Shown here piece by piece: positions 32,977 to 50,534 of a DNA stretch of 64,000 bases. The position numbers and the translations under genes were made by a program. Every line of letters begins with the position of its first letter. The first letter of the stretch is position 1. The notes under the pieces were generated by a model. It had not been told where the DNA came from, ran no database searches, and worked only from the letters and a program-made list of their open reading frames with translations. Origin of the DNA: Desulfobacterales bacterium (lineage in GTDB: Bacteria; Desulfobacterota; Desulfobacteria; Desulfobacterales; SpSt-501); contig JAUQXK010000097.1 of assembly GCA_030834695.1 (NCBI GenBank), forward strand, positions 88,823 through 152,822, written 5' to 3'.

Positions 32977-33050
32977 ATTCCGGCCGGGCCTCCCCGCCGG
33001 GAAGAGGCCCGGGCGTGTGGACCCGGAAGACACGGAGCGAGGAGAACGCA

Positions 33051-33551: not shown

Positions 33552-33563
33552 CGGAGAATTTGA

Positions 33564-35465
33564 ATGGCAACCGCAATCAGCACCGCACCCGACCTCGCCT
33601 GGACGAAAAAGATCTCCAGCCCGCAAGAGCTCGCCTCGTTTCGCCAGGCGATCCTTGCGAGCTTGGACCCCAACGCGCCCCGCATCCGAGTCTGCTGCGG
33701 GACCGGCTGCAAGGCCGTCGGAAGTCTGGATGTCCTGGAGGCAATGAAAACCGCCGTGGCCGCGGCCGGTGTCGATGTTCACGTCATGCCCGAGGTCAAA
33801 CGCACCGGCTGCCACGGGTTCTGCTCCCGCGGCCCGCTGCTGACCCTGGAACCGCAGGGCTTGTTTTACCAGCGCGTCAAATCCGAGGACACCGCGGAAA
33901 TCGTTCAGAAGACGATCATCGGCGGCGAGGTGATCCCGCGTTTCCTTTACAAGCCCCCGGGTTCCAAGGAGGCCATCGCCAAGGTCAGCGACATCCCTTT
34001 CTTTGCCAAACAGACCAAACTGGTGCTCAAACGCGTCGGCCGGATCGATCCCTTCGACATCCGCGACGCCATCGCCGCAGGCGCCTACGAGGGGATCGCC
34101 AAAGTCCTGGCCGAAATGACACCCCAGCAGGTCATCGAGGAAATCAAGGTCTCCCGGCTGAGAGGCCGGGGCGGAGCGGGTTTCCCCACCGGCGTCAAGT
34201 GGGAATCCTGCGCCGGCCAGGCCGGCCGGCACTATGTGATCTGCAACGGTGACGAAGGCGACCCCGGCGCCTTCATGGACGCCTCCGTCATGGAGGGTGA
34301 CCCCCATGCGGTTCTCGAGGGCATGGCCATCGCCGCCTACGCCATGGGTTCCGATCGGGGTTTCCTCTACGTGCGCATGGAGTATCCCCTGGCGGTCCAG
34401 ACCCTCACGGCGGCCATCCGCCAGGCCGAGGACCTTGGACTGCTCGGCCAAAACATTTTAGGCACCGACTTCAGTTTTCGGGTTTCCGTCTCCACCGGCG
34501 CCGGCGCTTTTGTCTGCGGCGAATCTTCCGCCCTGATGTCTTCCCTGGAAGGCAAGGTGGGCCGCCCGCGGGCGAAATACATCCGCTCCACCGAAAAAGG
34601 CTTCCGCGACAGCCCTTCCAACCTGAACAACGTCGAGACCTACGCGAACGTGCCAGAGATCATCCTGCGCGGCGGCCAGTGGTACACCACCTACGGCACG
34701 GAGCGCTCAACCGGCACCAAGGTCTTCTCCCTCACCGGCAATGTTCATAACGTGGGCCTGGTGGAAGTGCCCATGGGCACTTCGCTCAAAGATATCGTCT
34801 TCGGTATTGGCGGCGGCGTTCCCAACAAAAAGGAGCTGAAGGCGGTCCAGACCGGCGGCCCTTCCGGCGGCTGCATCCCCATACCGAGCAAGTTCATCGA
34901 CATCAACGTGGGCTTCGGCAAGCTCGCCGAAATCGGCTCCATGATGGGCTCCGGCGGCATGATCGTCATGGACGAGAACACCTGCATGGTGGAGATTTCG
35001 CGCTACTTCATCAACTTCCTGGTAGAGGAGTCCTGCGGCCAGTGCACGCCCTGCCGCGAGGGGCTGACCCGTATGCGCGAGATCCTGTCGCGCATCACCC
35101 AGGGCGAGGGCCGCGAGGGGGACATCGAACTGCTCGAGGAGATCGGGCAGTTCACCAACAACTTTTCGCTGTGCGGCCTGGGGACCTCGGCCGCCAACCC
35201 GGTCTTGTCCACCATTCGATACTTCCGCGATGAATATGAGGCCCACATCCGGGACAAAAAATGCCCGGCCGGCGTATGCAAGCCGCTTTACTACTATGAA
35301 ATAGATTCTGAAAAGTGTACGGGCTGCGGCGTGTGCCGCAAGCGCTGCCCGGCCGCGGCCATCGAAGGCGAGAAAAAGAAGCCGCACACCATCCACCAGG
35401 AACTGTGCATCAAGTGCATGGAATGCTACCGCAACTGCAAGTTCGACAGCATCCGGATCATGTGA
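33564..35465 (+). CDS. nuoF: NuoF-type NADH-binding flavoprotein with extra Fe-S domains (HndC/HydB-like)
   Basis: The 633-residue protein is about 200 residues longer than classical NuoF. Its parts are an N-terminal thioredoxin-like [2Fe-2S] domain (CCGTGCKAVG, CHGFCSRGP), the FMN/NADH core (RGRGGAGFPTGVKWE, CNGDEGDPGAFMD, GAGAFVCGESSALMSSLEG), the [4Fe-4S] ligands ESCGQCTPCREG with a distant CGLG, and a C-terminal pair of [4Fe-4S] motifs (CTGCGVCRKRCP, CIKCMECYRNC). This layout is typical of NADH subunits of bifurcating [FeFe]-hydrogenases and formate dehydrogenases, and suggests ferredoxin contact. It sits between nuoE and a short NuoG-like gene. Confidence 0.94.
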   Translation: MATAISTAPDLAWTKKISSPQELASFRQAILASLDPNAPRIRVCCGTGCKAVGSLDVLEAMKTAVAAAGVDVHVMPEVKRTGCHGFCSRGPLLTLEPQGLFYQRVKSEDTAEIVQKTIIGGEVIPRFLYKPPGSKEAIAKVSDIPFFAKQTKLVLKRVGRIDPFDIRDAIAAGAYEGIAKVLAEMTPQQVIEEIKVSRLRGRGGAGFPTGVKWESCAGQAGRHYVICNGDEGDPGAFMDASVMEGDPHAVLEGMAIAAYAMGSDRGFLYVRMEYPLAVQTLTAAIRQAEDLGLLGQNILGTDFSFRVSVSTGAGAFVCGESSALMSSLEGKVGRPRAKYIRSTEKGFRDSPSNLNNVETYANVPEIILRGGQWYTTYGTERSTGTKVFSLTGNVHNVGLVEVPMGTSLKDIVFGIGGGVPNKKELKAVQTGGPSGGCIPIPSKFIDINVGFGKLAEIGSMMGSGGMIVMDENTCMVEISRYFINFLVEESCGQCTPCREGLTRMREILSRITQGEGREGDIELLEEIGQFTNNFSLCGLGTSAANPVLSTIRYFRDEYEAHIRDKKCPAGVCKPLYYYEIDSEKCTGCGVCRKRCPAAAIEGEKKKPHTIHQELCIKCMECYRNCKFDSIRIM

Positions 35466-35513
35466 CCGGCTGCCGGATGAAGCGGCGGCTGTGAGATCCG
35501 AAGGACATCAGGC

Positions 35514-36317
35514 ATGAAGATCATCATGGACGGAAAAGAGGTTGCGGCCGAACGTGGCCAGACCATCGTGGAGGTGGCTCGGCGCAACGGCGTCTACATC
35601 CCAACCCTCTGCCATGTCCCGGCGCTGGAGCCGGCGGCCATGTGCCGGGTGTGCACCGTGGAGTTGGTCGAAGGCCGCCGCACGCGCCTGGTGACCTCCT
35701 GCAACTACCCGCTGCGCGGAGATGCGGAGATCCGCACCGACACCCCCATGCTGCGGCAGAACCGCAAGGTGCTCATCGAACTGCTCGCTTCGCGCTGCCC
35801 CGACGCCGAAGCCCTGAAAGAGCTGGCCGAGCGCTACGGCGCCGACCTGAACCGCTTTCCGGCCGAAGACCGACAATGCATCATGTGCGGCCTGTGCGCG
35901 CGCGTCTGCGAGCGGGTCGGCGGCAACGTGCTCGCCCTCTGCGGCCGCGGGGTCGAGATCCGGGTGGACACCTCCTTCGGCCGGCTCTCGCCGACCTGCA
36001 TCGGATGCGCTTCCTGCGTTCAGATCTGCCCGGTCAACGCCATCCGCATCGAAGACATGGACGGCGAGCGCCGGGTGATCGTCAGGGGCAAGGAAGCCTC
36101 GCGCGTCCAGCTGCGCAAATGCACAAGCTGTGGCATCCACTTCGGTCCGGTGATCGACCTCGGTCCGGTGCTCGATCGTGCGGGGGAGGGGGGCGTCCCC
36201 GCTTTCAACGCCAGCGTCTGCCCGGCCTGTTCGCGGCGCAGCCTGGCCCGGCGTCTGGCCGAACGGCATTTTGAACAGCACGCGGTCGAATCTCCCGATG
36301 CGGACGAGGAAGGCTGA
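35514..36317 (+). CDS. Short NuoG-like Fe-S protein (HoxU-type) with C-terminal CxxC pair
   Basis: The 267-residue protein corresponds only to the N-terminal part of NuoG. It has a [2Fe-2S] plant-ferredoxin domain (Cys33, 44, 47, 63) and two [4Fe-4S] motifs (Cys122-132 CIMCGLCARVC and Cys162-172 CIGCASCVQIC). The His/Cys3 cluster motif usually following the [2Fe-2S] domain is absent, and so is the large molybdopterin-fold domain. An added C-terminal segment has CTSC (203-206) and CPAC (236-239), which look like a zinc ribbon or an extra cluster site. It passes electrons from the flavoprotein toward NuoI. The next gene is nuoD. Confidence 0.92.
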   Translation: MKIIMDGKEVAAERGQTIVEVARRNGVYIPTLCHVPALEPAAMCRVCTVELVEGRRTRLVTSCNYPLRGDAEIRTDTPMLRQNRKVLIELLASRCPDAEALKELAERYGADLNRFPAEDRQCIMCGLCARVCERVGGNVLALCGRGVEIRVDTSFGRLSPTCIGCASCVQICPVNAIRIEDMDGERRVIVRGKEASRVQLRKCTSCGIHFGPVIDLGPVLDRAGEGGVPAFNASVCPACSRRSLARRLAERHFEQHAVESPDADEEG

Positions 36318-36321
36318 CGCC

Positions 36322-37488
36322 ATGTCCCAGGATGTGAACTCCCGCCTGACGGGGGATTTCTATACGGCGCCGTTTGGCCCCCGCCTCGAGCCGGACGGCG
36401 ACACGCTGGTCCTCAACATGGGGCCGCAGCACCCCGCCACTCACGGTGTGCTGCGGGTGGTCGTGGAGTTGGACGGCGAGTACATCCGCCGTGCCGAGCC
36501 GGTCCTGGGTTACATCCACCGCATGCACGAAAAAATGGGTGAGGTGAAAACCTGGGTGCAGTACCTGCCCAACATGGGCCGGGTGGACTACCTGCACGCC
36601 CTCGCCTGGAACTGGGCCTATGTGGGCGCGGTCGAAAAGCTGATGGGCATCGAGGTCCCCCCGCGGGCCGAGTACATCCGGGTAATTACCTGCGAATTGA
36701 ACCGCATCAATTCGCACCTGCTCTGGTGGGGCGCGTACTTGTTGGACCTGGGCGCGTTTACTCCGATTTTGTATGCCTTCGCCGACCGCGAGCACATCAT
36801 GGACATCCTGCAGATGGTGACCGGTTCGCGGCTGACCTATTGCTACTACCGCTTCGGCGGGGTTTCGGGGGACGTGAACGACGAATTCATCCGCCGAACG
36901 CGCGAGTTTGTGGCCGACTTCAAGAAACGCCTGCCCATGTATCGGGCGCTGGTGACCGACAATATAATCCTGAGGGGCCGCTGCGAGGACATCGGCGTGC
37001 TGACCCCGGAGATGGCCCGGCGCTACGGCGCCACCGGGCCGGTGCTGCGGGGTTCGGGGGTGGCCTATGACGTACGCCGCGCCGAACCGTATTCAATCTA
37101 CGACCGGCTGGATTTCGACATCCCCACCGGCCGAAAGGGCGACGTAATGGATCGCTATGAGGTGCGCATGGCGGAATTGGACCAATGCCTGCGCATCGTC
37201 GAACAGGCGCTGGACGCCCTGCCGACGGGCGCCCACATCCACCCCGATCTGCCCGAACGATTCATTCCGCCCAAAGGCGAGGTCTACTACGCGGTGGAAG
37301 GCGCGCGGGGCAAAATCGGGGTCTACCTCTTGAGCGACGGCGGCCCGAAGCCCTACCGGGTCAAGCTGCGCTCGCCCGGTTTTTCCAACCTGAGCCTGTT
37401 CGCGGAGCTCGCCCAGGGCACGCTCCTGGCCGACGCCGTGTCCATCCTGGGCAGCCTGGACCTCGTGATTCCGGAGATCGACCGATGA
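36322..37488 (+). CDS. nuoD: NADH-quinone oxidoreductase subunit D
   Basis: The 388-residue 49-kDa-type subunit, a relative of [NiFe]-hydrogenase large subunits without the metal Cys, shapes the quinone site with NuoB. Signatures are LNMGPQHPATHGVLRVVVELDGE, EPVLGYIHRMHEKMGE, NRINSHLLWWGAYLLDLGA and VYLLSDGGPKPYRVKLRSPGFSNL. The ATG at 36322 is 4 bases after the previous stop. The longer frame from 36178 lies inside the preceding gene. Placement after nuoEFG rather than after nuoC differs from the E. coli order. Confidence 0.95.
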   Translation: MSQDVNSRLTGDFYTAPFGPRLEPDGDTLVLNMGPQHPATHGVLRVVVELDGEYIRRAEPVLGYIHRMHEKMGEVKTWVQYLPNMGRVDYLHALAWNWAYVGAVEKLMGIEVPPRAEYIRVITCELNRINSHLLWWGAYLLDLGAFTPILYAFADREHIMDILQMVTGSRLTYCYYRFGGVSGDVNDEFIRRTREFVADFKKRLPMYRALVTDNIILRGRCEDIGVLTPEMARRYGATGPVLRGSGVAYDVRRAEPYSIYDRLDFDIPTGRKGDVMDRYEVRMAELDQCLRIVEQALDALPTGAHIHPDLPERFIPPKGEVYYAVEGARGKIGVYLLSDGGPKPYRVKLRSPGFSNLSLFAELAQGTLLADAVSILGSLDLVIPEIDR

Positions 37489-38474
37489 CGGCACAGTTGC
37501 TGGAACTGCTTTCCCATCCGCTCGGGCAGATGATCACCGCGCTGGCGGCCATCATGGTCTTCATGGCCGTGAACGGCATGGCTTTGCAGTACGCGGAACG
37601 CAAGGTGGCCGGGTTCATCCAGCGCCGGCCGGGGCCCTACGAGGTCGGTCCGCACGGCCTGCTGCAGCCTTTCGCCGATGCCGGCAAGCTGATCAGCAAG
37701 CAACTCGTCGCGCCGCTCGGCGCGGACCGGTTGCTGTTCTGGATAGCCCCGCTCGTCTCGGTGGCGCCGGTGGTGGTCTGCTTCCTGCCCATCCCCTTCA
37801 GCCCGCTTTTGACCGGCATGAACATAAACCTGGGGCTCTTGCTTATATTGGCCTTCTCGGGCTTGAACACGCTCGCGCTCTGTCTGGCCGGTTGGGGGTC
37901 GAACAACAAATACAGCTTGCTCGGCGCGGCTCGGGCGGTCGCCCAGTCGGTGGCCTACGAGATCCCGCTGCTGCTATCCGTGCTGGCGGTGGCCTTCCAG
38001 GTCGGCTCCCTCGATCTCGCGGCCATTGCCGCGTCCCAGACCCAAGGTTTGTTGTCTTGGAATGTGCTTGTCCAACCCCTGGCCTTCATCATCTTCTTCA
38101 TTTCGGGCATAGCCGAAACCAACCGGGCGCCTTTCGACCTGCCCGAGGCCGAGAGCGAGCTGACCGCCGGTTTCCATACCGAGTATTCCGGCATGTGCTT
38201 CGGCATCTTTTTCCTGGCCGAGTACTCGTACATGGTGGTGGTCTGCGCCGTGGCCACCGCGTTGTTCCTGGGCGGCTGGGATGGCCCTGTCTTCCCGGGA
38301 CCCTGGTGGTTCCTCGCCAAGACATTTGCGCTCATCTTCGCCATGATGTGGTTTCGCTGGACCTTCCCCCGCGTGCGCTTCGACCAGCTGTTGAACATCT
38401 GCTGGAAGTGGCTGATCCCGCTGGGACTGGCCAACTTGGTGGCGACGGCCGCTATCGTCAAATGGGTGCAATGA
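37485..38474 (+). CDS. nuoH: NADH-quinone oxidoreductase subunit H
   Basis: The 329-residue membrane subunit has about eight helices and links the quinone site to the pump. Signatures are YAERKVAGFIQRRPGPYEVGPHGLLQPFADAGKLISKQ, AETNRAPFDLPEAESELTAGFHTEYSGMCFGIFFLAEY and FRWTFPRVRFDQLLNICWKWLIPL. The ATG at 37485 overlaps the nuoD stop (ATGA) and gives normal length. Confidence 0.95.
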   Translation: MTAQLLELLSHPLGQMITALAAIMVFMAVNGMALQYAERKVAGFIQRRPGPYEVGPHGLLQPFADAGKLISKQLVAPLGADRLLFWIAPLVSVAPVVVCFLPIPFSPLLTGMNINLGLLLILAFSGLNTLALCLAGWGSNNKYSLLGAARAVAQSVAYEIPLLLSVLAVAFQVGSLDLAAIAASQTQGLLSWNVLVQPLAFIIFFISGIAETNRAPFDLPEAESELTAGFHTEYSGMCFGIFFLAEYSYMVVVCAVATALFLGGWDGPVFPGPWWFLAKTFALIFAMMWFRWTFPRVRFDQLLNICWKWLIPLGLANLVATAAIVKWVQ

Positions 38475-39049
38475 GCATGAAACGTCTCTTCCAAAACATA
38501 AAGGGCCTATGGAGCTTGCTGGTCGGCCTGAAGGTCACGGGGGGCGAGCTAATCAAGCCCTGGCTCACGGTCCATTACCCGCGCCAGGAGGTTGAGAACC
38601 TATCGAGCTACCGCGGCCACATCGAACTGGTGCCGGCAACGGACGACCCCCTGACCCCGCGCTGCATCATGTGCTGGAAATGCGTCGAGATCTGTCCCTC
38701 GCGATGCATCAGCCTGCGCATGCACGCAACGGGCGAAGCGGGTGTCGCGGCCGCGGACGACCCGGGGCTCCTGTTGGCGCCGGAAGTGAAATCGCCCTAC
38801 TCCGCGCACCTGGCCCCGCCGCCGGACAAAATCGAGCGGATCCTCGACAGCTACCGGCTCAACTACAGCCTGTGCAGCCTCTGCGGGCTGTGCGTGCAGA
38901 TCTGCCCGGTGGATGCCATCCGCTTCTCCCGCAACGCCTACCTGGTGGGGACGACGCGGCAGAGCTTCGAGCTGGATCTGCTGGCCCGGCTGAAATCCCA
39001 GGCGGCATCTGCGCGCGGGGCCGCGCCGACGCAACCGCAAGGAGCCTAA
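38471..39049 (+). CDS. nuoI: NADH-quinone oxidoreductase subunit I
   Basis: The 192-residue subunit has two [4Fe-4S] clusters (CIMCWKCVEICPSRC and CSLCGLCVQICPVDA) and passes electrons to NuoB. The gap between the two motifs (about 60 residues) is longer than usual, with an insert containing LLLAPEVKSPYSAHLAPPPDKIERI. The ATG at 38471 overlaps the nuoH stop (ATGA). A second ATG 6 bases on is possible. Confidence 0.94.
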   Translation: MSMKRLFQNIKGLWSLLVGLKVTGGELIKPWLTVHYPRQEVENLSSYRGHIELVPATDDPLTPRCIMCWKCVEICPSRCISLRMHATGEAGVAAADDPGLLLAPEVKSPYSAHLAPPPDKIERILDSYRLNYSLCSLCGLCVQICPVDAIRFSRNAYLVGTTRQSFELDLLARLKSQAASARGAAPTQPQGA

Positions 39050-39054
39050 GATCG

Positions 39055-39573
39055 ATGGAACAACTGGCCCATGCTGCATATGGACTCTACCTGGTGCTCA
39101 TCCTCGCCGGGGCCTGGGCGGCCGTGCGCTGCCGGAACCTGGTGCGCGCGCTGCTGGGGCTCATCATGACCCTCTTCGGAGTCGCCGGGATGTATTTTCT
39201 CATGGCGGCCCCCTTCATGGCCCTGATGCAGATCCTGATCTATGTGGGTGCGGTGAGCGTGCTCATTTTCTTTGCCATCATGCTCACCCGCACGCCGGGC
39301 GGCGAGGCCGGCGAGGAGGGCGGAGGGGCGCGGCCGGCCGTGCGCACCGTGCTGGCCCTGCTGAGCGGGCTTCTGCCCGCGGCGATCCTGGCCGCGGTGA
39401 TTTTGACCAAGGCCCCCCAGAGCCTGCCCTTGAAACCCGAGCTTCCCCTCGGCCGGCTCGGTCAGTTCCTGACGGGGCCTTACGTGCTGGCCTTCGAGCT
39501 GATTTCGGTGGTGCTGCTGGCCGCCATGGCCGGAGCGGTCGTGCTCGGCTTCGAGAGGAGGAAAAGCGCATGA
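39055..39573 (+). CDS. nuoJ: NADH-quinone oxidoreductase subunit J
   Basis: The 172-residue membrane subunit has five helices and the NuoJ core FGVAGMYFLMAAPFMALMQILIYVGAVSVLIFFAIML, which carries the pi-bulge helix involved in gating. The ATG at 39055 follows AAGGAG. The frame open from 38671 is inside nuoI. It ends in an ATGA overlap with nuoK. Confidence 0.94.
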   Translation: MEQLAHAAYGLYLVLILAGAWAAVRCRNLVRALLGLIMTLFGVAGMYFLMAAPFMALMQILIYVGAVSVLIFFAIMLTRTPGGEAGEEGGGARPAVRTVLALLSGLLPAAILAAVILTKAPQSLPLKPELPLGRLGQFLTGPYVLAFELISVVLLAAMAGAVVLGFERRKSA

Positions 39574-39878
39574 GCCCGCTGGTGCTGTTCCATCTGGCCG
39601 CCCTGCTGCTGCTGGGCTTCGGCCTGTACGGTCTCACCAGCCGCCGGAGCCTGGTGGGAATGCTCATCTCGGTGGAGCTCATGTTGAACGGCGCCGGACT
39701 CGCGCTGGTGGCGAGCGCCCGGCTGACCCCGGCGTCGGATGAGCTGGGCCAGCTCGGCACCCTGCTGGTCATGGGGCTCGCCGCCGCGGAGGCCACCCTG
39801 GTGCTGGCCATGGTCCTGGTGGCGGCCAAGCGCTGGGGGACTTCGGACAGCGATCGGCTGTCGGCGTTGAAAGGATAG
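39570..39878 (+). CDS. nuoK: NADH-quinone oxidoreductase subunit K
   Basis: The 102-residue subunit has three helices with the two conserved membrane Glu: one in SVELMLNGAGLALVA (helix 2) and one in AAAEATLVLAMVLVA (helix 3). It starts in an ATGA overlap with nuoJ. It is followed by a perfect 18-bp inverted repeat in the gap before the first antiporter-like gene. Confidence 0.95.
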   Translation: MSPLVLFHLAALLLLGFGLYGLTSRRSLVGMLISVELMLNGAGLALVASARLTPASDELGQLGTLLVMGLAAAEATLVLAMVLVAAKRWGTSDSDRLSALKG

Positions 39879-39888
39879 AACAAGGAAA

Positions 39889-39942: not shown

Positions 39943-39981
39943 AAAGAATCGTATCAGCACGTACCACGCAGGAAAACCATA

Positions 39982-41460
39982 ATGGTTATAGAACATTCCA
40001 CCTTGATCTGGCCGCTCGTATTCACCGGCCTGGCGCCCTTCTTCATCTGGCTGCTGCGGGGCAACATCAACGCCCGTGAGGGGGTATCTTTCGCCGCCGG
40101 CGTGCTCACCTTCGGCACGGTGCTGACCTTCGTGCCGCCGGTGCTGAACGGCCAGGTCCTGGTCTATCCTCTCTTCGTGATTTTGCCCGGCATCGAGGTC
40201 AAGTTCGGCGCGGACGGCCTGGGCCTCATTTTCGCGATCGTGGCCTCCTTTCTGTGGATCCTGGCGACGGCCTACAACATCGGCTACATGCGATCTCTCA
40301 AGGAGCACGCCCAGACCCGCTATTACTTCTGCTTCGCGGTGGCGATCTTCGGCGCTGTAGGGGTTGCCCTATCCGCCAATGTCTTCACGCTTTATCTTTT
40401 TTACGAAGTCATCACGGTATTCACCTACCCGCTGGTGGCCCATCACCAGGACGAGGAGGCCTACCACGGCGCGCGCAAGTACCTGGTCTACCTCATGGGC
40501 ACCTCCAAGCTCTTCCTGCTGCCGGCGATGATCCTGACCTATGTGCTCTGCGGGACGCTCGACTTCCGCCTGGGCGACCTGGCGCAGGGCATTTTCCCGG
40601 CGGACGCCGACCCCACCTTGGTGACGATCACATACGCCCTCTATGTCGCGGGCCTGGCCAAAGCAGCCATCATGCCGCTGCACAACTGGCTGCCCTCGGC
40701 CATGGTGGCGCCGACTCCGGTGTCGGCCCTGCTGCACGCGGTGGCCGTGGTGAAGGCGGGTGTGTTTTCGATCTGCCGGGTGCTTCTGTCCGCTTTCGGC
40801 GTCACCCGCATGGACGCGCTGGGTCTGGGCGACGCCACGGCTGTTTTCGCCGCCCTGACCATCGTGCTGGCTTCGGTCATCGCCCTGACCAAGGACGACC
40901 TCAAGGCCCGGCTGGCCTATTCCACCGTAAGTCAGCTTTCGTATGTGGTCCTGGGGGTCTCGATGCTCACCCCGCTCGCCGTGACCGGCGGCGTGGCCCA
41001 CATCGCCCACCATGCTTTCAGCAAGATCACGCTCTTTTTCACGGCCGGCGCCATCTACGTCGCCAGCCACCAGAAAAAGATCAGCATGATGTCCGGCCTG
41101 GGCCGGCGCATGCCGTGGACCTTCGGGGCTTTTGCGGTCGCCGCGCTGTCCATGATCGGAATCCCACCGGTGTGCGGGTTCGTGAGCAAATGGTACATGG
41201 TGAACGGTGCAGTGAGCGCCGGCCATTACGCCCTGCTGGCGGCCCTGCTGGCGAGCACGATCCTGAACGCGGCCTATTTCACGCCGGTGGTCTACAAGGC
41301 CTTCTTCGAGGAACCGGCGCCGGGGGTGGACCTCGGCCATTACACCGAAGCGCCGCTGTCCATGGTCGCGCCGCTGTGCTTCACGGCCGCGGTCAGCGTT
41401 TTTCTCGGGCTCTACCCCGAGACGTTCATCCAGTTCATTCACGCCCTGAAAGGGTTTTGA
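39982..41460 (+). CDS. Extra NuoM/MrpD-like antiporter subunit
   Basis: The 492-residue protein has about 14 helices of the complex I/Mrp antiporter family. The TM5 Glu is in YLFYEVITVFTYPLVAHH and the TM7 Lys in AGLAKAAIMPLHNWLPSAMVAPTPVSALLHAVAVVKAG. It retains TKDDLKARLAYSTVSQLSYVVLG and HIAHHAFSKITLFFTAGAIY. It lacks the long C-terminal lateral helix of NuoL. With the later NuoL-, NuoM- and NuoN-like genes it makes four antiporter-like subunits instead of three. AGGAAA precedes the ATG. Confidence 0.9.
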   Translation: MVIEHSTLIWPLVFTGLAPFFIWLLRGNINAREGVSFAAGVLTFGTVLTFVPPVLNGQVLVYPLFVILPGIEVKFGADGLGLIFAIVASFLWILATAYNIGYMRSLKEHAQTRYYFCFAVAIFGAVGVALSANVFTLYLFYEVITVFTYPLVAHHQDEEAYHGARKYLVYLMGTSKLFLLPAMILTYVLCGTLDFRLGDLAQGIFPADADPTLVTITYALYVAGLAKAAIMPLHNWLPSAMVAPTPVSALLHAVAVVKAGVFSICRVLLSAFGVTRMDALGLGDATAVFAALTIVLASVIALTKDDLKARLAYSTVSQLSYVVLGVSMLTPLAVTGGVAHIAHHAFSKITLFFTAGAIYVASHQKKISMMSGLGRRMPWTFGAFAVAALSMIGIPPVCGFVSKWYMVNGAVSAGHYALLAALLASTILNAAYFTPVVYKAFFEEPAPGVDLGHYTEAPLSMVAPLCFTAAVSVFLGLYPETFIQFIHALKGF

Positions 41461-41475
41461 GAAAAAGAGGCCATC

Positions 41476-41790
41476 ATGGGACAGCACCCGACGCCACCTT
41501 CCGCACTGCTGTCGGCTCCAGCCAGGAAGCTGCGCAACCTGATGTTCGCCGCGTTGGCCCTCCTGGTGCTGCTAAACCTGTTCATCCACCCGCACGAGCC
41601 GCACTTCGGCCTAGACGCCTATGCCGGATTCTGGGCGGTCTTCGGTCTGGTCGGCGCCGTGGTGCTGGGCCGCGCGGCCAAGGGGCTGGCCCACACCGTT
41701 CTGGGGAAGAACGAAGATTTTTATGAAAAAGGGACTGAGGATTCAATGCATGCGGCGCCCGCAGAGCAGAAACCGCCACACCACCATTGA
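41476..41790 (+). CDS. Small two-helix membrane protein in the nuo operon
   Basis: The 104-residue protein has two predicted transmembrane helices (about residues 22-39 and 49-68) joined by a short HPHEPHFGLDAYAG loop, and a hydrophilic tail ending in His residues. It resembles no canonical complex I subunit. Its position between two antiporter genes suggests an accessory membrane subunit. GAGG precedes the ATG. Its stop codon abuts the heptamer repeat at 41787. Confidence 0.8.
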   Translation: MGQHPTPPSALLSAPARKLRNLMFAALALLVLLNLFIHPHEPHFGLDAYAGFWAVFGLVGAVVLGRAAKGLAHTVLGKNEDFYEKGTEDSMHAAPAEQKPPHHH

Positions 41791-41820
41791 ACCCCTGAAC
41801 CCTGAACCCTGAACCCTTTG
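41787..41820 (+). repeat. Tandem CCCTGAA heptamers
   Basis: At least three direct copies of ccctgaa, with a fourth imperfect copy (acccctgaaccctgaaccctg and onward), start at the stop codon of the small membrane gene and reach the ribosome site of the next gene. It belongs to the same family as 23645-23763 and 39889-39942. Confidence 0.8.
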
Positions 41821-41831
41821 AGGTTATCAGC

Positions 41832-43595
41832 GTGACCGAGTTCCTGCACCCGTCCATATTCTTCGTAGCCTGCGCCCTGGCCGTGTGGCTGCTGCCCGGT
41901 CGGCTCGGGCGCTGGCTGCCGCCGGTGGCGGCGGCGCTCGCCATCGCCAGCGTGCTCGCCATGCAACCCGGCGTTTACACGCGGATCGGCTACCTGGGGC
42001 TGACGCTGGGGTTGGGCCGCGTGGACGCCCTCTCCACGGTCTTCGCCCACGTGTTCGCCATCCAGGCCCTGATCGGGTTCATCTTCGCCCTGCACGTGGA
42101 GGACCGCTGGCAGCATGTGGCCGCCTGCATGTACATCGCCGGCGCCTTCGGCTGCACCTTTGCCGAGGACTATGTCACGCTCTTCGTCTTCTGGGAGCTG
42201 ATGAGCGTCGCCTCGACCTTTCTGGTCTGGCTGCGGCGCATGCCGGCGTCGACCCGCGCGGGCATCCGCTACTTCCTCTTTCACATCCTGGGCGGCCTGC
42301 TGCTTCTGGCCGGCCTGCTCCTGCGCCATCAGGCCACCGGCACCTTCGCCTTCGAGGCCGCCGACCCGGCCGCGGCCCGGTTCTACGATATCCTGATCAT
42401 GCTGGGGTTCTGCGTCAACGCGGCCGTAATCCCTCTGCATGCCTGGCTGCCGGACGCCTACCCCGAGGCCACCGTGACCGGTGCCGTGTTCATGAGCGCC
42501 TTCACCACCAAGACGGCCGTGTACGTGCTGCTGCGCGCCTTTACAGGGTTCGAGATCCTGGGGATCATGGGCACCCTGATGACCATCTACGGCGTCATCT
42601 ACGCCACCATCGAGAACAACGCCCGCCGCATCCTGGCCTACCACATCGTCTCTCAGGTGGGCTACATGGTGGCGGGCGTGGGAGTGGGCACGGCCATGAC
42701 CGTCAACGGCGCCTGCGCCCATGCCTATGCCCACATCCTTTACAAGGGCCTGCTCTTCATGGGGGCGGGCACGCTGCTCTACGCGGCCGGCACGGCCAAG
42801 CTTTCGGACCTGGGCGGCCTCTACCGGCGCCTGCCGTGGGCCTTCCTCTGGTACATGGTGGCGGCGGTGAGCATCTCCGGCTTTCCGCTCTTCTCCGGGT
42901 TCGTCAGCAAGACCATGACCATCACCGGCGCGGCCGAGGCCCATCACACCTGGCTCGCCCTGGGCATGGAATTCGCGGCGGTCGGCACGTTCCTGTCGGT
43001 CGGCATCAAGCTGCCCTATTTCGCCTGGTTCGGCCGGCCCGACCCGGGGATCGCGCTCAGGCCCGTGCCCCGCAACATGTACGTGGCCATGGGGATCGCC
43101 GGCCTGCTGTGCTTCTATATCGGTGTGCAGCCCGGCTTCCTCTACCGGCTGCTGCCCAATCCCGTCGACTATGTGCCCTACACCCCCTGGCATGTACTCC
43201 AGTCATCGCTGCTGCTGGGGTTCACCGGCCTGGGGTTTTACCTATTGCGGCACAAACTGGTCCCGGAAGCAAAGATCAATCTCGACTTCGACTGGGTTTA
43301 CCGGATGATCGGCCGGGTGGTGCTCGCCCTGGCCCGCCGGCCGGTGGAACAGATCGACAACTGGTGGACCGAGTTTTACAACCGCGCCGGCCTGCGGGGC
43401 TTGATGAATGTCGCCGACGGCAGCGCATGGTTCGACAAGCGCGCCATCGACGGCGTCGTGGACGGCACGGCCCTGGGTGTGCGCCGCGTCGGCCGCACCG
43501 CGACGGGCGTCCAGACCGGCCGGCTTCAGGACTACCTGGCGGCGGCCGTGGTGCTGGGCCTGGCCGTCTTTGCGGTGGTCTGGTATGCGGGCTGA
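41832..43595 (+). CDS. nuoL: NuoL/MrpD-like antiporter subunit with a changed TM7 lysine
   Basis: The 587-residue protein has an antiporter core and a NuoL-like C-terminus (DGSAWFDKRAIDGVVDGTALGVRRVGRT, QTGRLQDYLAAAVVLG), which suggests it fills the distal position. The conserved TM5 Glu is present (Glu122 in FVFWELMSV). At the TM7 position where relatives have Lys before the PLHxWLP motif, this protein has Asn196 (FCVNAAVIPLHAWLPDAYPEA). That Lys is central to proton transfer in studied antiporter subunits. The start is a GTG at 41832 after GAGG. Confidence 0.88.
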   Translation: MTEFLHPSIFFVACALAVWLLPGRLGRWLPPVAAALAIASVLAMQPGVYTRIGYLGLTLGLGRVDALSTVFAHVFAIQALIGFIFALHVEDRWQHVAACMYIAGAFGCTFAEDYVTLFVFWELMSVASTFLVWLRRMPASTRAGIRYFLFHILGGLLLLAGLLLRHQATGTFAFEAADPAAARFYDILIMLGFCVNAAVIPLHAWLPDAYPEATVTGAVFMSAFTTKTAVYVLLRAFTGFEILGIMGTLMTIYGVIYATIENNARRILAYHIVSQVGYMVAGVGVGTAMTVNGACAHAYAHILYKGLLFMGAGTLLYAAGTAKLSDLGGLYRRLPWAFLWYMVAAVSISGFPLFSGFVSKTMTITGAAEAHHTWLALGMEFAAVGTFLSVGIKLPYFAWFGRPDPGIALRPVPRNMYVAMGIAGLLCFYIGVQPGFLYRLLPNPVDYVPYTPWHVLQSSLLLGFTGLGFYLLRHKLVPEAKINLDFDWVYRMIGRVVLALARRPVEQIDNWWTEFYNRAGLRGLMNVADGSAWFDKRAIDGVVDGTALGVRRVGRTATGVQTGRLQDYLAAAVVLGLAVFAVVWYAG

Positions 43596-43677
43596 AGTGG
43601 CGGCACGCCGCGGCTGAAGCCCCGCACCGTTTAAACACCCTAATGAGCATAAAACACTATTCGGAGTTGAGCTGCGC

Positions 43678-45234
43678 ATGAGTGAATGGCCCATATTGAC
43701 GGTGCTGATCTTCTTTCCGGTAGCGGCCTGCCTGGTCCTGCCCTTCATCCGCGGAGACCGGGCCGTACGGGTGTTTTCTCTCGGCGTGGGGCTCATCGAA
43801 CTGCTGCTGGCGCTGCCGCTCCTGCGTTTCGACCTGTCCGCATCCGGCTATCAGTTCCAGGAGAAAGCGGCCTGGGTGCCGCAGTGGGGCCTGCACTACC
43901 ATCTGGGCATGGACGGGATCAGCCTGCTGATGGTGCTGCTGACCGTGCTGCTGCTGCCGCTGTGCGTGCTGTGCTCGTGGACCTACATCAGCCGGCGGAT
44001 CAAAGAGTTTCACTTCAGCCTCATGCTCATGACATCGGCCTGCGTGGGCGTCTTCCTCGCCCTGGATTTCGTGCTGTTTTACATCTTCTGGGAGGCCATG
44101 CTGGTCCCCATGTTCCTGCTCATCGCCGTTTGGGGCGGGCCCGAACGCCGCTATGCCTCTCTCAAGTTTTTCCTTTACACCCTGGCCGGCAGCACGCTCC
44201 TGCTGGTGGCGATGGTGGCGTTCTACCTCGCCGGCGGCACCTTCTCCATCCCGGAGCTTTCGGCCAAATCCTACCCCTTCGGCTTTCAGTGCTGGACTTT
44301 TCTGGCCATGGCGTTCGCCTTTGCCATCAAGGTGCCCATGTTCCCGTTCCATACCTGGCTGCCGGCCGCGCACGTGGAAGCCCCCACGGCCGGCAGCGTC
44401 CTGCTGGCATCGATCCTGTTGAAAATGGGAGCCTACGGATTCCTGCGCTTCTGCCTGCCCATGACCCCGACGGCCAGCGTCTATTTTGCGCCGCTGATGA
44501 TCGCCGGTTCGATCGCCTCCATTCTGTATGGCGGTTTCGTGGCCCTCGGCCAGCACGACATGAAGAAGCTGATCGCCTATTCGTCGGTAGCGCACATGGG
44601 GTTCGTGACCCTGGGCATTTTTCTCTTCACCCTGCGCGGGCTGGAGGGCGCACTGATGGTCATGCTCAACCACGGCATCACCACGGGCGCCCTCTTTATG
44701 CTGGTGGGCTGCATCTACGAGCGCAGCCACAGCCGGGAGATCGGCCAAAACCTGGGGCTGGGCAAATATCTCCCGGCTTACATGGGATTCTTCGGTCTGT
44801 TTGCCCTTTCCTCATTGGGTTTTCCCGGTACCAACAGCTTCGTGGGCGAAGCCCTGGTGCTGATCGGCGCATTTGCGCACACGCCCTGGGTGGGCGCTGC
44901 GGCCGTCCCCGGCGTGATGCTGGGCGCGGCCTACATGCTGCGTCTGGGCCAGAAGCTGGCCTGGGGCGAACCGACCAAGGCCAAGGCCTGGCCGGACCTG
45001 AACGTCCGGGAGTGGGTCTATTTCGCCCCCTTGGCGGTCCTGGTGATTTACATCGGGCTCGCGCCGGGTTTGACCCTCAGGGCCATGGACCCGACGCTGA
45101 CTCGCGTCCTCGACGAATTTCGCCGGCGTTCGGCGATGGCCGCGGCCGAGGTGGCAGCGCCGCTGCCCGGCTGGGTGGTGACAACCCGCAGCGAGCTTCC
45201 GGCGTCGGATCCGGCGCCGGTGTTGCCGCGCTAA
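43678..45234 (+). CDS. nuoM: NADH-quinone oxidoreductase subunit M
   Basis: The 518-residue subunit has 14 helices and typical NuoM landmarks: LHYHLGMDGISLLMVLLT, FVLFYIFWEAMLVPMFLLIAVWGG with the TM5 Glu, AIKVPMFPFHTWLPAAHVEAPTAGSVLLASILLKMGAYGFLRF with the TM7 Lys, and AYSSVAHMGFVTLG. A GGAG lies upstream. The C-terminal 40 residues (EVAAPLPGWVVTTRSELPASD) are a hydrophilic extension not usual in NuoM. Confidence 0.95.
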   Translation: MSEWPILTVLIFFPVAACLVLPFIRGDRAVRVFSLGVGLIELLLALPLLRFDLSASGYQFQEKAAWVPQWGLHYHLGMDGISLLMVLLTVLLLPLCVLCSWTYISRRIKEFHFSLMLMTSACVGVFLALDFVLFYIFWEAMLVPMFLLIAVWGGPERRYASLKFFLYTLAGSTLLLVAMVAFYLAGGTFSIPELSAKSYPFGFQCWTFLAMAFAFAIKVPMFPFHTWLPAAHVEAPTAGSVLLASILLKMGAYGFLRFCLPMTPTASVYFAPLMIAGSIASILYGGFVALGQHDMKKLIAYSSVAHMGFVTLGIFLFTLRGLEGALMVMLNHGITTGALFMLVGCIYERSHSREIGQNLGLGKYLPAYMGFFGLFALSSLGFPGTNSFVGEALVLIGAFAHTPWVGAAAVPGVMLGAAYMLRLGQKLAWGEPTKAKAWPDLNVREWVYFAPLAVLVIYIGLAPGLTLRAMDPTLTRVLDEFRRRSAMAAAEVAAPLPGWVVTTRSELPASDPAPVLPR

Positions 45235-45247
45235 AGGAGAAAGCTCG

Positions 45248-46678
45248 GTGGAATTCAACGTGCACATGGTCCTGCCCGAACTCGTTCAGCTGGCGATCGT
45301 GCTGGCGCTCTTTCTGAAAAGCGTAGCAAAATCGTCCAAGAGCGATGGGTTTTTCGCGCGGGTCTTGCCGCTGGCGGCCGGCGCCGGCATGGTCGCCGCC
45401 GGTTTCAGCCTGGGAACCGAGGGCATCCTGTTCTGGGAGTCCTACAAAATCGACGGCCTGTCCCAGTTCTTCAAGTTCGCCGTGACGCTCGGGTTTACCA
45501 TCGCCGTGCTCAACGCCTCCTCCCAGCCGACCCTCGAGCCCGAAAAACGCGCGGACTACTTCCTGCTGCTGGCCCTGAGCGCACTCGGCCTCATGTGCCT
45601 TGCCAGCGCCGTGGAGCTGGTCACGATCTACCTCGCCCTGGAGCTCTCCTCCTACAGCCTGTACGCCTTGATCCCGCTGCGGGGGCGCGAGCCCCGTGCG
45701 GCCGAGGCCGGCATCAAGTACATCCTCTTCGGGGCCGCGGCCACGGCCCTGTCTCTTTTCGGCCTGGCTTATATCCTCGCCGGCCAGCACTCCAGCTATC
45801 TGGCCGTCCTGACCGGCCGGCCCTGGACCTGGGCCGCGGCGCCGGTCGGCGTCATCGGCCTGACGCTCTTCATGGCGGGCTTCTTTTACAAGCTCGCCCT
45901 CTTCCCCTTCCATTTCTGGGCGCCCGATGTTTACGACGGCGCCAGCAACGAAACGGCGGCCTACGCCGCCACCCTGCCCAAGCTCGGGGCCGTGGTGATC
46001 CTGATCCGTTTGGCCGCCATGCTCACGCCCGGCCTGCAAATCACCACAGTCCTGGCGGTCCTCGGAGCCGCCTCCATGACCTTCGGCAACCTCGCCGCTT
46101 TGACCCAGCAGGACATCAAGCGCATGCTGGGGTATTCCAGCGTGGCCCATGCCGGCTACGTCATGGTGGGACTGGTGGCGGCATCGGCGAGCGGCCTGGC
46201 CGCCGCGGGGTTCTACAGCCTGATCTATGTCCTGATGAATCTGACCTGCTTCTGGGTGATCTGCCGGCTGGCGACCGACGGCCGCAATCTCCAATTGAAC
46301 GACCTCAACGGGCTTTACCGCCGCGCACCGTTTCTGGCCTTTGTCCTTGCAGTGGCCGCCCTGGCGCTGGTGGGGCTGCCGCCCACCGCCGGCTTTATGG
46401 GCAAGCTCTTCCTGTTGAGCGCGGCCTGGAACCGCGGCTATGACTGGCTGGTGGTCGTCGCCGCATTGAACACGGCCATCTCCATTTACTACTACCTGAA
46501 TCTCATCCGGCATGCCTACACGGTCGAGGCGGACGGGGATGAAGTGACGCCGCCGCTGCCCGCCGCAGGGGGGGCCGTGTGGGGCGGTGTGCTGGCCGGG
46601 CTCCTGCTGCTTCTGGGCGCCGTTCCGGCGCCGGTGTTCAAGTGGGCCGAAGCGGCCGGGCGACAGCTGATGCCTTGA
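45248..46678 (+). CDS. nuoN: NADH-quinone oxidoreductase subunit N
   Basis: The 476-residue subunit has about 14 helices. Its marks are SSYSLYALIPLRGREPRAAEAGIKYILFGAAATALSLFG, MAGFFYKLALFPFHFWAPDVYDGASNETAAYAATLPKLGA with the TM7 Lys, and QQDIKRMLGYSSVAHAGYVMVG. The start is a GTG at 45248 after AAAGGAG. It is the last recognisable complex I gene. The molybdopterin protein gene follows 21 bp later with its own strong ribosome site. Confidence 0.95.
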   Translation: MEFNVHMVLPELVQLAIVLALFLKSVAKSSKSDGFFARVLPLAAGAGMVAAGFSLGTEGILFWESYKIDGLSQFFKFAVTLGFTIAVLNASSQPTLEPEKRADYFLLLALSALGLMCLASAVELVTIYLALELSSYSLYALIPLRGREPRAAEAGIKYILFGAAATALSLFGLAYILAGQHSSYLAVLTGRPWTWAAAPVGVIGLTLFMAGFFYKLALFPFHFWAPDVYDGASNETAAYAATLPKLGAVVILIRLAAMLTPGLQITTVLAVLGAASMTFGNLAALTQQDIKRMLGYSSVAHAGYVMVGLVAASASGLAAAGFYSLIYVLMNLTCFWVICRLATDGRNLQLNDLNGLYRRAPFLAFVLAVAALALVGLPPTAGFMGKLFLLSAAWNRGYDWLVVVAALNTAISIYYYLNLIRHAYTVEADGDEVTPPLPAAGGAVWGGVLAGLLLLLGAVPAPVFKWAEAAGRQLMP

Positions 46679-46699: not shown

Positions 46700-48787
46700 A
46701 TGCCGGCAAAAACCATTTACAGCGTCTGTGGCATGTGCCCGGTGCGCTGTCCGATTGAAGTGGACGTGGAAAACGAGCAATGCCGTTTCATCCAGGGCAA
46801 CCGGCAGGCGCCGTCGATCCGCGGGGCGCTCTGCACGCGCGGGGCGGCCGGGATCCCTTTCGTCCGCGACGATGAACGACCGCAGTTTCCCATGGTTCGC
46901 AAGGGCGAGCGCGGAGAGGGGCGATGGCAGCGGGTATCCTGGGAGGAGGCGTTTTCGTTCGCCGCCGAAAAAATCGCAGCGGCGCGCGACCGCTACGGCG
47001 GCCGCAGCCTCCTCTGGTCGGACACGGGTGGGCCCTTCAGCGACCTCCGGCAGGCTTTCGTGCGCGGCTTGGGCTCGCCCAATTATTTCAGCGCGGAGTC
47101 CGTGCATGGCGTCAATCGCCAGCACGCCGCCCTGTCCCTCTTCGGCTTCAGCGATGACCGGCTCGTCCTTGACCTGAAACATGCGCGCGAGGTGGTCCTG
47201 CAGGCGCGCAACCTATTCGAATCCGTTCACATCCAGCAGGCCAACGACCTCCTGGACAGCCTGGAGAACGGCGGGCGGCTCACGGTCGTTGATGTCCGCG
47301 CCACGGTAACCTCCGGCAAAGCCGATCGGTTTTTCCTCATCCGGCCGGGAACCGATTACACACTGAACATGGCCGTCATCCAGATTCTTTTGAAGCGCAA
47401 GCTTTACGACGCGGCCTATGCCGAGAAGTGGATCGCCGACCTGGATGAACTCGGACGCTTGACCGCCGGATTCAGCCCACAGGTCGCCGAAGCCGAAACC
47501 GGCATCCCGGCCGCTGATATCGAGGCCCTGGCCCAGGACCTTGCCAAAGCCGCGCCGCAGGTCATCTGGCATCCGGGCTGGAGGACTGCGCGCTACACCG
47601 ATTCCTTCTTTGTGTGCCGCACGGCCCTCATCATCAATGTCCTGCTAGGGTCCGTCGGCGCCAGGGGCGGCCTGCCGCTGAGCTCGCGTCCCGAAGACCT
47701 CGGCCAAAAGGGGCTGAGCCGACTTACCGACCTTTACCCGGCGGTGACGGAGCAACGCGCCGACGGCGTGGGCTGGAAATATCCGGCGTTCGAGGGGGGA
47801 CCGGGGCTTCTGCATACCGCCCTGGGCGCTATCCATTCGCATGATCCCTATCCGATCAAAGCCTGCGTGACCTACCAGCATGATCCGCTCGCCGAACTCC
47901 CCGATCCGGAGAAGCTCGCATCGATCCTGGCCGGCCTCGACCTCCTGGTGTGCGTGACCTCCGCCTGGTCCGAAACGGCCTGGAACGCCGACCTGGTGCT
48001 TCCCTTGTCGCCCTATCTCGAACGGGAAAGCCTGATCGCCCAGCTGGACGGCATCAGGCCGGGCTTCCTGCTGCGGCGGCGCTGCGTTTCTCCGCGTTTC
48101 GACACCCGATCGGACTGGGAGATCATCGGCGGCCTCGCACAGCGGCTGGGCCTGTCATCCCTGGCTTTCGGTTCGGCCGAGGACATCTGGAAGTTCCAAT
48201 TGGACGGCACCGGCGTGAGGCTGCAGGACTTCGATGCCAAGGGCATGGTGGACCTCACGGGCCAGCCGCAATACAGCCGCCTGACGGAGGGATTCCGGTT
48301 CCCCACGGATTCGGGCAAGATCGAGATGGTCAGCTTCCGATGGCGGCGGCAGGGCCTGCCCAGCCTGGGGTCTTATGTCCCGAAGAGCCACCCGGCCGCC
48401 GGGATGTTCCGCCTGATCCTGGGCGGCTGCGGCCTGCACAGCGAAGGCGACACCGTGAACAACCCGCTCCTGCACAAGCAGATGCCCGAAAACGTGCTCT
48501 GGCTGAACCAGGCGGCCGCCGCCGCATTGGACATCGCCGACGGCGAGACGGTGGCCGTTTCCGTCCAGGACCGCTCCGGACGCATCCGGGTTCGGCTCTC
48601 GGAATTCATTCATCCCGAAGCGGCGTTCACGGTGACCGGCTTCGGGCGCACGCTGCCGCCGGAATCGAGAGCCCTCGGACGCGGGCTGGCCGCCAACCGC
48701 CTCATGCCCGGCGGGCTCGACATCGGGGACCCCAGCGGCGGAGGATTGGCTCTGCAGGAACACGAAATAACCGTTCGCAAGCTGTAA
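46700..48787 (+). CDS. Molybdopterin oxidoreductase-like protein (Psr/Phs/Fdh family) attached to the nuo operon
   Basis: The 695-residue protein has an N-terminal [4Fe-4S] site (Cys10, Cys13, Cys17, Cys45), the bis-pterin fold (RVSWEEAFSFAAEKI, ARNLFESVHIQQAND, VVDVRATVTSGKADRFFLIRPGTDYTLNMAV) and a C-terminal beta-barrel (LNQAAAAALDIADGETVAVSVQDRSG). There is no Tat signal, so it should be cytoplasmic, unlike most polysulfide/thiosulfate reductases. In the segment that usually supplies the metal ligand, the protein reads GSPNYFSAESVHGVNRQHA (125-143), with Val/His where Cys, SeCys or Ser is expected. It may be a formate-dehydrogenase-like catalytic subunit or a catalytically altered NuoG-like part. 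A strong GGAGG precedes it. Confidence 0.88.
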   Translation: MPAKTIYSVCGMCPVRCPIEVDVENEQCRFIQGNRQAPSIRGALCTRGAAGIPFVRDDERPQFPMVRKGERGEGRWQRVSWEEAFSFAAEKIAAARDRYGGRSLLWSDTGGPFSDLRQAFVRGLGSPNYFSAESVHGVNRQHAALSLFGFSDDRLVLDLKHAREVVLQARNLFESVHIQQANDLLDSLENGGRLTVVDVRATVTSGKADRFFLIRPGTDYTLNMAVIQILLKRKLYDAAYAEKWIADLDELGRLTAGFSPQVAEAETGIPAADIEALAQDLAKAAPQVIWHPGWRTARYTDSFFVCRTALIINVLLGSVGARGGLPLSSRPEDLGQKGLSRLTDLYPAVTEQRADGVGWKYPAFEGGPGLLHTALGAIHSHDPYPIKACVTYQHDPLAELPDPEKLASILAGLDLLVCVTSAWSETAWNADLVLPLSPYLERESLIAQLDGIRPGFLLRRRCVSPRFDTRSDWEIIGGLAQRLGLSSLAFGSAEDIWKFQLDGTGVRLQDFDAKGMVDLTGQPQYSRLTEGFRFPTDSGKIEMVSFRWRRQGLPSLGSYVPKSHPAAGMFRLILGGCGLHSEGDTVNNPLLHKQMPENVLWLNQAAAAALDIADGETVAVSVQDRSGRIRVRLSEFIHPEAAFTVTGFGRTLPPESRALGRGLAANRLMPGGLDIGDPSGGGLALQEHEITVRKL

Positions 48788-48829: not shown

Positions 48830-49342
48830 ATGAGCAAACACATGATCCGCCACGATCCGCAGCGGTGCATCAGCTGCAAGGCCTGTGAGGTGCACTGCCA
48901 GGTCAAAAACCGGACGGCCGCCGCTGTCAAACCCGGAGCATTGATCACGGCAGGCCCGGACCGTCTGCTGGATAAGGTGCAGGTCCTATCCGCGTTTCGA
49001 CCGTGCTTCCACTGCGAAAAGCCCTGGTGTGTCGCCGTGTGCCCGACCGGTGCCATGGTCAAACGCGCCGAAGACGGCTTCGTGCACGTCGTCCGAGCCC
49101 TGTGCGTGGGATGCCGGGCCTGCGTCGGCGCCTGCCCCTGGAAGGTCCCGCAATGGGATGAATCCACCGGCCGGGTGGTCAAGTGCGACGGCTGCTTCGA
49201 CCGGGTCATGCAGGGGTGTGAGCCGGCCTGCGTGGCCGGATGCACGACGCATGCCCTTTCGTTCTCCCGGCCCAACGAAAACGTTCGCAAGGTCCGATTG
49301 CTTTACGCCAAATCCCTCCTGGTGGAAAAGAAATCTGGCTGA
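48830..49342 (+). CDS. Four-cluster ferredoxin subunit (HycB/CooF/PsrB type)
   Basis: The 170-residue protein has four Cys groups: CISCKACEVHC, CFHCEKPWCVAVCP, CVGCRACVGACP and CDGC with the later CEPACVAGC. It is a close structural analogue of the protein at 32503. It follows the molybdopterin gene by 42 bp with AGGAG, the usual order catalytic subunit then electron-transfer subunit. No membrane anchor gene follows, which supports docking onto another complex such as the one encoded upstream. Confidence 0.92.
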   Translation: MSKHMIRHDPQRCISCKACEVHCQVKNRTAAAVKPGALITAGPDRLLDKVQVLSAFRPCFHCEKPWCVAVCPTGAMVKRAEDGFVHVVRALCVGCRACVGACPWKVPQWDESTGRVVKCDGCFDRVMQGCEPACVAGCTTHALSFSRPNENVRKVRLLYAKSLLVEKKSG

Positions 49343-49511
49343 TGCAAACACGTCCTGGCGCTGAGGCTCGCTTTTTCTCCGCCGCTGAAACCACCCCCGC
49401 GGAGCCGGGCGGCCATGAACCGGGACGTGATACGGCATATTGTCGGTTCAGCTAACGCAAACTAAACCTCCGGCCAGCTGCCGCTGCCCGCCCAAAGGAG
49501 AAAAGCGACCT

Positions 49512-50534
49512 ATGCCAACCGCCGATTTCTTCCACCGTTATCTTTATGCCCTTTCCGAGATTCACGCGTCTTTCGACCTGGAGGCCACTCAGAACGCCGT
49601 GGTGCGCAACGCCGTGATGCTCTATGACGCCTGCGGGGCCAACCTGATGCTTTTCAATCCCAGCGAGGAGAATTTGCTGATCTCGGCATCGTTCGGACTC
49701 AGTGAGGCCTATCGGACCAAGGGGACGATCAGCCCCCGCAAAAGTCTGGGGGAAACGATCGATCGAGTGCCGGTGATCGTTCGGGATGTCGCCACCGACC
49801 CAAGGGTTCAATATCCGGAAGCAACCATCAAGGAGGGCATCCGTTGCATCGTCGGCCTGCCCCTTACGGCGACCAGCGCCTTGGTGGGGGCCCTGCGGCT
49901 GTATTTCGCCCAGCCCCGAGAATTCACTCCCGAGGAAATGGCATCCCTCCAGGCCCTGTCGCTTCAGGCCGGGCTGGCCCTTAAAAAAGCCTTCTATTTC
50001 GCCTCGATGAAAGCGGCTGTATCCGACATCCAACGCATGCCGTCCACCGATCTCAAGGAAGCCATGCAGTCGCTGCTCGCCACTGTGGCCAAATACGGTC
50101 TAGCTCGAGGCAGCGGCTTGCTGATGCGCGACCCCAAAACCAATACGCTCACCACCGTAGTGCGCTACGGCCTCAGCCAAAATTACCTTTCCAAGGGCCC
50201 GGTGTTGGCGGGGCTCAGCCTGGGAGAAGTGACCACCGGCAAACCCGTCGTGGTATCCAAGGTCGCTACCGATCCCCGGATCCAGTACAAGGAAGCCGCT
50301 GCAGCCGAGCATGTAGCGGCGATTCTGGGTCTGCCCGTTCGGATTGGAGGGGAGATCGCCGGCGCCCTGCGATTGTATTATCCCTTTGAGTTCGAACCCG
50401 GGCCGGACTACATCATGTGGATGGAGCACCTCGCCCACCAGGTCGGCATCGCTCTGGAGAAAACACAGCTGATGATCAAACTCAGGGAACGGGCCGATTG
50501 GTACGAAGATGTTCTAAGAGACCTGGAACGCTGA
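49512..50534 (+). CDS. Tandem-GAF domain protein
   Basis: The 340-residue soluble protein is made of two GAF domains (about residues 15-165 and 180-330) that are duplicates: [12 protein letters not shown] and [22 protein letters not shown] and [10 protein letters not shown] occupy matching positions. No output domain is fused, so it may be a ligand sensor acting by protein contact. The ATG at 49512 is preferred because AAAGGAG lies 11 bases upstream. The open frame from 49440 has no site. It lies 170 bp after the last ferredoxin gene and may belong to the same transcript. A weak GC hairpin (50542-50556) follows the stop. Confidence 0.82.

Follow-up and report, generated by a model that had tools for sequence, protein, structure and literature searches.

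The 64,000-nucleotide stretch of DNA analyzed here (the window), from a Desulfobacterales bacterium related to sulfate reducers, carries, directly behind a complete nuo operon, a gene for a MopB-family protein in which the residue expected to hold the metal is missing. The locus raises the question of whether its product is still an enzyme or has become a non-catalytic part of a complex I variant. How complex I came by its inert molybdoenzyme domain (NuoG) has long been asked, and most studies of the matter have looked at the end state. The nuo operon (31073-46678) lies upstream of the MopB gene, and the genes for FdxH2 and a GAF-like protein follow downstream, in this order:

31073..32453, + strand: NuoA, NuoB and NuoC, overlapping open reading frames (sequence reading; orthologous operons)
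32503..32976, + strand: FdxH1, DmsB-like ferredoxin (sequence and domain/profile matches)
33015..35465, + strand: NuoE and NuoF, the latter at 33564-35465 (sequence and domain matches)
35514..36317, + strand: short NuoG, 267 amino acids, with [2Fe-2S] and 4Fe-4S dicluster parts (domain/profile matches)
36178..39878, + strand: NuoD, NuoH, NuoI, NuoJ and NuoK, starts approximate (sequence reading)
39982..46678, + strand: four antiporter-type subunits and a small protein, i.e. MrpD-like 39982-41460, small protein 41476-41790, NuoL/MrpD-like 41832-43595, NuoM 43678-45234 and NuoN 45248-46678 (sequence reading, profile matches)
46700..48787, + strand: MopB-family subunit, 695 amino acids (Pfam, AlphaFold2, PDB structure match)
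47072..47128, + strand: loop residues 125-143 of the MopB protein (GSPNYFSAESVHGVNRQHA), His136 replacing the metal-ligand Cys (alignments)
48830..49342, + strand: FdxH2, DmsB/PsrB-like ferredoxin subunit with 16 cluster Cys (profile matches)
49440..50534, + strand: GAF-domain-like protein (domain named by eye from the sequence; conserved neighbour)

The operon suggests a variant of complex I that has additional genes for ferredoxin and MopB. Its antiporter-type subunits are four (two MrpD/NuoL-like, NuoM and NuoN), accompanied by the small protein; standard complex I has three. NuoF (633 amino acids) carries a thioredoxin-like domain at the N-terminus and a 4Fe-4S dicluster domain at the C-terminus, and this NuoF of the hydrogenase HydB-like type together with the short NuoG resembles the NADH module of multimeric FeFe hydrogenases, a group that includes electron-bifurcating enzymes. 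The short NuoG is devoid of a MopB domain and matched the NuoG model TIGR01973 over positions 1-87 of 606 only. The FdxH1 gene between those of NuoC and NuoE is syntenic in relatives. All 16 cluster Cys of FdxH2 are present in 9/9 orthologues; the protein is expected to carry four [4Fe-4S] clusters and is the likely partner of the MopB protein.

The MopB protein combines in a single polypeptide the domains Molybdop_Fe4S4, Molybdopterin and Molydop_binding, each above the Pfam cut-off, and has one [4Fe-4S] motif formed by C10, C13, C17 and C45. Its AlphaFold2 model (mean pLDDT 92.9) matched best the PDB chain 2vpw_A (Z 42.7 over 678 residues, rmsd 2.1, 28% identity), so by domains and fold the protein is a member of the MopB (DMSO reductase or Mo/W-bisPGD) superfamily. 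NuoG was absent among the structure matches listed, which is informative neither way. As a PsrA/PhsA the protein scores below the cut-off of the PhsA equivalog NCBIfam (412.2 bits against 694), has no Cys ligand, begins with MPAKTIYSVCGMC without a leader peptide (read from the sequence by eye), and its gene is surrounded by nuo genes, FdxH2 and the GAF-like gene, with no gene for a PsrC-type anchor. As a formate dehydrogenase alpha subunit it falls below the TIGR01591 cut-off (180.5 bits against 666) and lacks the family's pair of selenocysteine or Cys with a following His, having neither selenocysteine nor Cys at position 136. A fused NuoG/Nqo3 chain was dismissed as the gene is separate from that of the 267-amino-acid short NuoG and the TIGR01973 score is 40.8 bits against a cut-off of 470. 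The score for QrcB (NF041783) is likewise below its cut-off (147.5 bits against 440). Two further Cys, C28 and C462, never vary within the nuo-linked clade described below, whose outside relatives have them in 6/36 and 1/36 sequences, respectively; they possibly serve as a structural or cluster contact.

The preliminary description of the window, made from the DNA letters alone, had placed Val135-His136 at the expected ligand position and called for an alignment with polysulfide reductase (PSR) and formate dehydrogenase (FDH). The first half of this comparison is clear: in the phmmer alignment His136 (codon CAT, 47105-47107) faces residue 173 of the polysulfide reductase 2vpw, a Cys. The second half is misleading, since phmmer pairs Val135 (codon 47102-47104) with the selenocysteine of FdhF solely by means of a one-residue gap. 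We take 136 as the ligand position because the spacing from the GSPN Asn is eight residues in both proteins and because the Cys of all close relatives falls at 136, not 135, in a gapless alignment. Among the non-redundant sequences containing the loop, those outside the protein's own clade have Cys136 in 117/117 cases and His132 in 117/117. The expected ligand is thus indeed missing, as first noticed, and no other conserved Cys or Ser that might reach the metal was found in the loop of the kin without the ligand; relative G395, for instance, has Ala in place of Ser134.

The relatives came from searches of whole genomes and GTDB contigs, which gave a family set of 131 non-redundant members with at least 34% identity; in the genome-contig scan a single-protein query returned no loci and an alignment query returned 80. 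In a tree computed without the loop and the other eroded positions, the ligand-less members belong to a single clade of 14 rows (SH-aLRT 100), and the changes between Cys and non-Cys number at least four, all within this clade. Cys136 is absent from 7/14 clade rows versus 0/117 sequences outside (Fisher p 3e-8, uncorrected for relatedness and descriptive only). Position 136 is occupied by His in the window, Leu in G396, Gly in G395, Phe in G254, Ser in G572 and Phe in G600, and an in-frame deletion of three residues takes out the ligand position in G514 (locus L231 on contig C201), of which the N-terminal part was read. The His/Leu/Gly/Phe variants make up the window's own subclade; the changes in G572, G600 and G514 lie on separate branches. 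G254 has a long branch, and its exact place is uncertain. Clade members G089, G772, G118, G295, G536, G597, G616 and G510 keep Cys136. The nearest kin in the tree are Cys-bearing MopB paralogues of Desulfobacterota rather than PSR or FDH proper. Four MopB genes of the window genome (L001, L002, L007 and L009) contain one in-frame TGA each, at the formate dehydrogenase selenocysteine position in at least three of them.

Loss of the ligand is accompanied by selective erosion elsewhere in the protein. A set of 36 relatives from outside the clade agrees at 74 alignment columns without exception; of these, the window protein departs at eight (R109T, H132A, C136H, H164E, A221T, R393Q, R576G and H646T) and keeps 66; G396 and G395 each depart at seven, the same positions minus A221, and a leave-one-out run on the outside rows gave a median of one broken column. 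The eroded positions also differ among the close orthologues (window/G396/G395: A/R/R at 132, H/L/G at 136, E/E/Q at 164, Q/Q/E at 393). Judging from their invariance and joint loss, R109, H132, H164, R393, R576 and H646 are probably substrate-side or active-site residues. H132 is altered in 14/14 clade rows and R393 in 13/14, the Cys-keeping rows included, and the changes at these two positions are therefore probably older than the loss of the ligand. The cluster ligands C10, C13, C17 and C45, reported as intact from the outset, are present in 14/14 clade rows. The equally early statement that the pterin motifs are intact also holds, most pterin-site residues being retained; N171, D198, R200, P216, G217, D219, D395 and P396 are kept in 14/14 rows.

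The linkage to nuo genes extends beyond the window. The operon with the MopB-FdxH2-GAF set is syntenic in G396, G395, G254, G089 and G772, and the same-genus orthologues G396 and G395 (70% and 64% identical to the window protein) occupy the same place after NuoN. In G600 the order is GAF, FdxH2, MopB and then NuoA onward, and in G514 and G585 the contig starts within the MopB gene, immediately upstream of NuoA. FdxH2 adjoins MopB in most clade genomes, though in neither G295 nor G616, and the GAF-like gene accompanies FdxH2 and MopB in most of them, even where the gene order has changed (G600, G536). This nuo type occurs in 10/389 genomes of the order, and a MopB protein of the clade was found in at least 9/10 of these versus 3/379 genomes without it. 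The lower bound comprises eight genomes with the full-length protein (the window genome G000, G396, G395, G254, G295, G536, G600 and G510) and G514, counted from its N-terminal part; in G585 the C-terminal 63 residues beside NuoA place the protein in the clade by position only. The Fisher test of this co-occurrence, descriptive like the one above, counted all ten. G572, G597 and G616 have a clade MopB with no close nuo operon of this type detected (G572 is 89% and G616 67% complete), and G295, G536 and G510 contain the operon as well as the MopB gene, without linkage between them. G585 also contains two Cys-type MopB copies (L230, L232, L243, L249) whose breaks at contig ends fall at identical residues in each, 176 and 294, which suggests a near-identical duplication that the assembler did not resolve.

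The nuo-linked MopB evolves under purifying selection. Between G000 and G396 its dN/dS is 0.196 and 19/26 loop residues (125-150) are identical, versus 0.082 and 25/26 for a Cys-bearing paralogue at a formate dehydrogenase locus (89% identical between these genomes) and 0.14-0.15 for NuoF and NuoN (82-83% identical); as dS of the nuo MopB pair is about 1, near saturation, the ratios are approximate. A dN/dS of about 0.2 means that the gene is no pseudogene. Part of the difference in rate from the paralogue could be due to a newly acquired function instead of relaxed selection.

How, then, is the absence of the ligand to be explained? An error of sequencing or assembly is barely conceivable: the assembly is fragmented (149 contigs), but a change from Cys to His takes two base changes, separately assembled relatives also lack the Cys and have other residues instead, and flanking positions are altered too. 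The preliminary description had suggested that His might serve as an unusual ligand in an active enzyme, and His136 does stand exactly at the ligand position and is able to coordinate a metal. We consider such an unprecedented ligand extremely unlikely, since R109, H132, H164, R393 and R576 are gone as well and the loop is roughly as divergent as the remaining protein; the Leu and Gly of the same-genus orthologues led us to reject the idea, and elsewhere in the clade the position holds Phe, Phe, Ser or a deletion. Decay of the gene after loss of function would fit its faster evolution relative to the paralogue, NuoF and NuoN and the erosion of the presumed active site. It is nevertheless very unlikely, as stop codons and frameshifts are absent, dN/dS is 0.2-0.29, 66 of the 74 family-invariant positions are retained, and the gene is intact and syntenic in several genomes, and the cysteines of FdxH2 are fully conserved.

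Loss of the Cys alone is no proof of inactivity: arsenite oxidase (AioA) is active although no amino acid of the protein binds its metal (PMC10100899). By this precedent the MopB protein might be an active enzyme that holds its metal by the pterins alone and acts on another substrate, and both the pterin-site residues kept in the Cys-less members and the constraint (dN/dS about 0.2) speak for it. We regard this explanation as unlikely, although it deserves serious attention: the presumed active-site positions vary among close orthologues, unlike in an enzyme with a single substrate, and AioA, which shares with MopB the lack of a protein metal ligand, is not closely related to it, the likeness being at the superfamily level (TIGR02693, 19.9 bits against a cut-off of 359).

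We therefore favour the explanation that the MopB protein is probably a former PsrA/PhsA-like enzyme subunit that was recruited to complex I and now acts as a non-catalytic electron wire or scaffold. In Desulfobacterota, a molybdo- or tungstoenzyme resembling PsrA/PhsA would have given rise to a cytoplasmic MopB subunit, recruited together with FdxH2 to a Nuo operon whose short NuoG has no MopB domain. After recruitment the family-invariant, probably substrate-side, positions would have been lost first and the metal-ligand Cys then several times independently, while fold, [4Fe-4S] site and ferredoxin clusters all persisted. At present the protein is most likely an electron relay or scaffold of the Nuo peripheral arm that no longer catalyses the ancestral reaction. 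The initial suggestion of a NuoG-like conduit is supported by the context, a complete nuo operon whose short NuoG has no MopB domain, by the fact that six more invariant positions have been lost together, and by the kept Fe-S ligands. Operon structure and co-occurrence suggest that the protein is physically attached to the Nuo complex, and since pterin-site residues persist, a pterin cofactor may still be bound, whether it carries a metal or not. Some observations weigh against our explanation. Had the cofactor disappeared altogether, the persistence of most pterin-site residues would be surprising; some clade members keep the Cys, and the genes of G295, G536 and G510 lie away from nuo.

It is possible, and we propose it tentatively, that in this clade a MopB subunit without metal has arisen for a second time, and independently, within an enzyme of the complex I type, the place of the C-terminal domain that the short NuoG lacks being taken by a PsrA/PhsA-like protein. 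Perhaps it has been caught in mid-transition, living relatives having kept the Cys, lost it in various ways, or lost the surrounding residues first. No described nuo-linked MopB of such type was found in the open literature searched, which does not imply that it is unpublished. The clade offers intermediates in living genomes, with the same operon type and fold and the ligand kept, replaced or deleted, and so allows a test of whether metal loss follows recruitment to the pump. It also calls for caution, as Desulfobacterota genes for which annotation would suggest a thiosulfate reductase or a formate dehydrogenase may encode non-enzymes.

Among known systems the Cys paralogues of Desulfobacterota share with the MopB protein its length, domain order, cluster motif and pterin-site residues, but in them Cys136 and the remaining invariant positions are unchanged, and they evolve much more slowly; the paralogue of the window genome (G000:C31:45005-47083, 54% identical to MopB) has a gene for a selenocysteine formate dehydrogenase as its neighbour and, unlike MopB, is located outside the nuo operon. 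PsrA (2vpw)/PhsA is the best match in structure and sequence, with the same fold over the full length. PsrA/PhsA proteins are Cys-ligated, exported and associated with a PsrC-type membrane subunit, whereas MopB has no Cys and no leader and sits with Nuo. NuoG/Nqo3, QrcB and ActB have been described as MopB homologues that lack either the cofactor or a catalytic function (PMC10100899, PMC6303296, PMC13059093), and QrcB is periplasmic and reported without a redox cofactor (PMC6303296, PMC13059093). QrcB and ActB resemble the proposed role of MopB in being recruited to respiratory complexes beside ferredoxin-type subunits; they differ in that their complexes have NrfD-type membrane subunits. The C-terminal domain of NuoG/Nqo3 likewise has a MopB fold tied to complex I and no metal-ligand residue, the tie of MopB being its operon linkage; it is fused to the 2Fe-2S/4Fe-4S part, whereas MopB is encoded by a separate gene, belongs to another MopB branch and has its pterin-site residues intact. 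The best-fitting reading of this comparison is that the clade probably parallels the history of NuoG, with the ligand lost after joining complex I.
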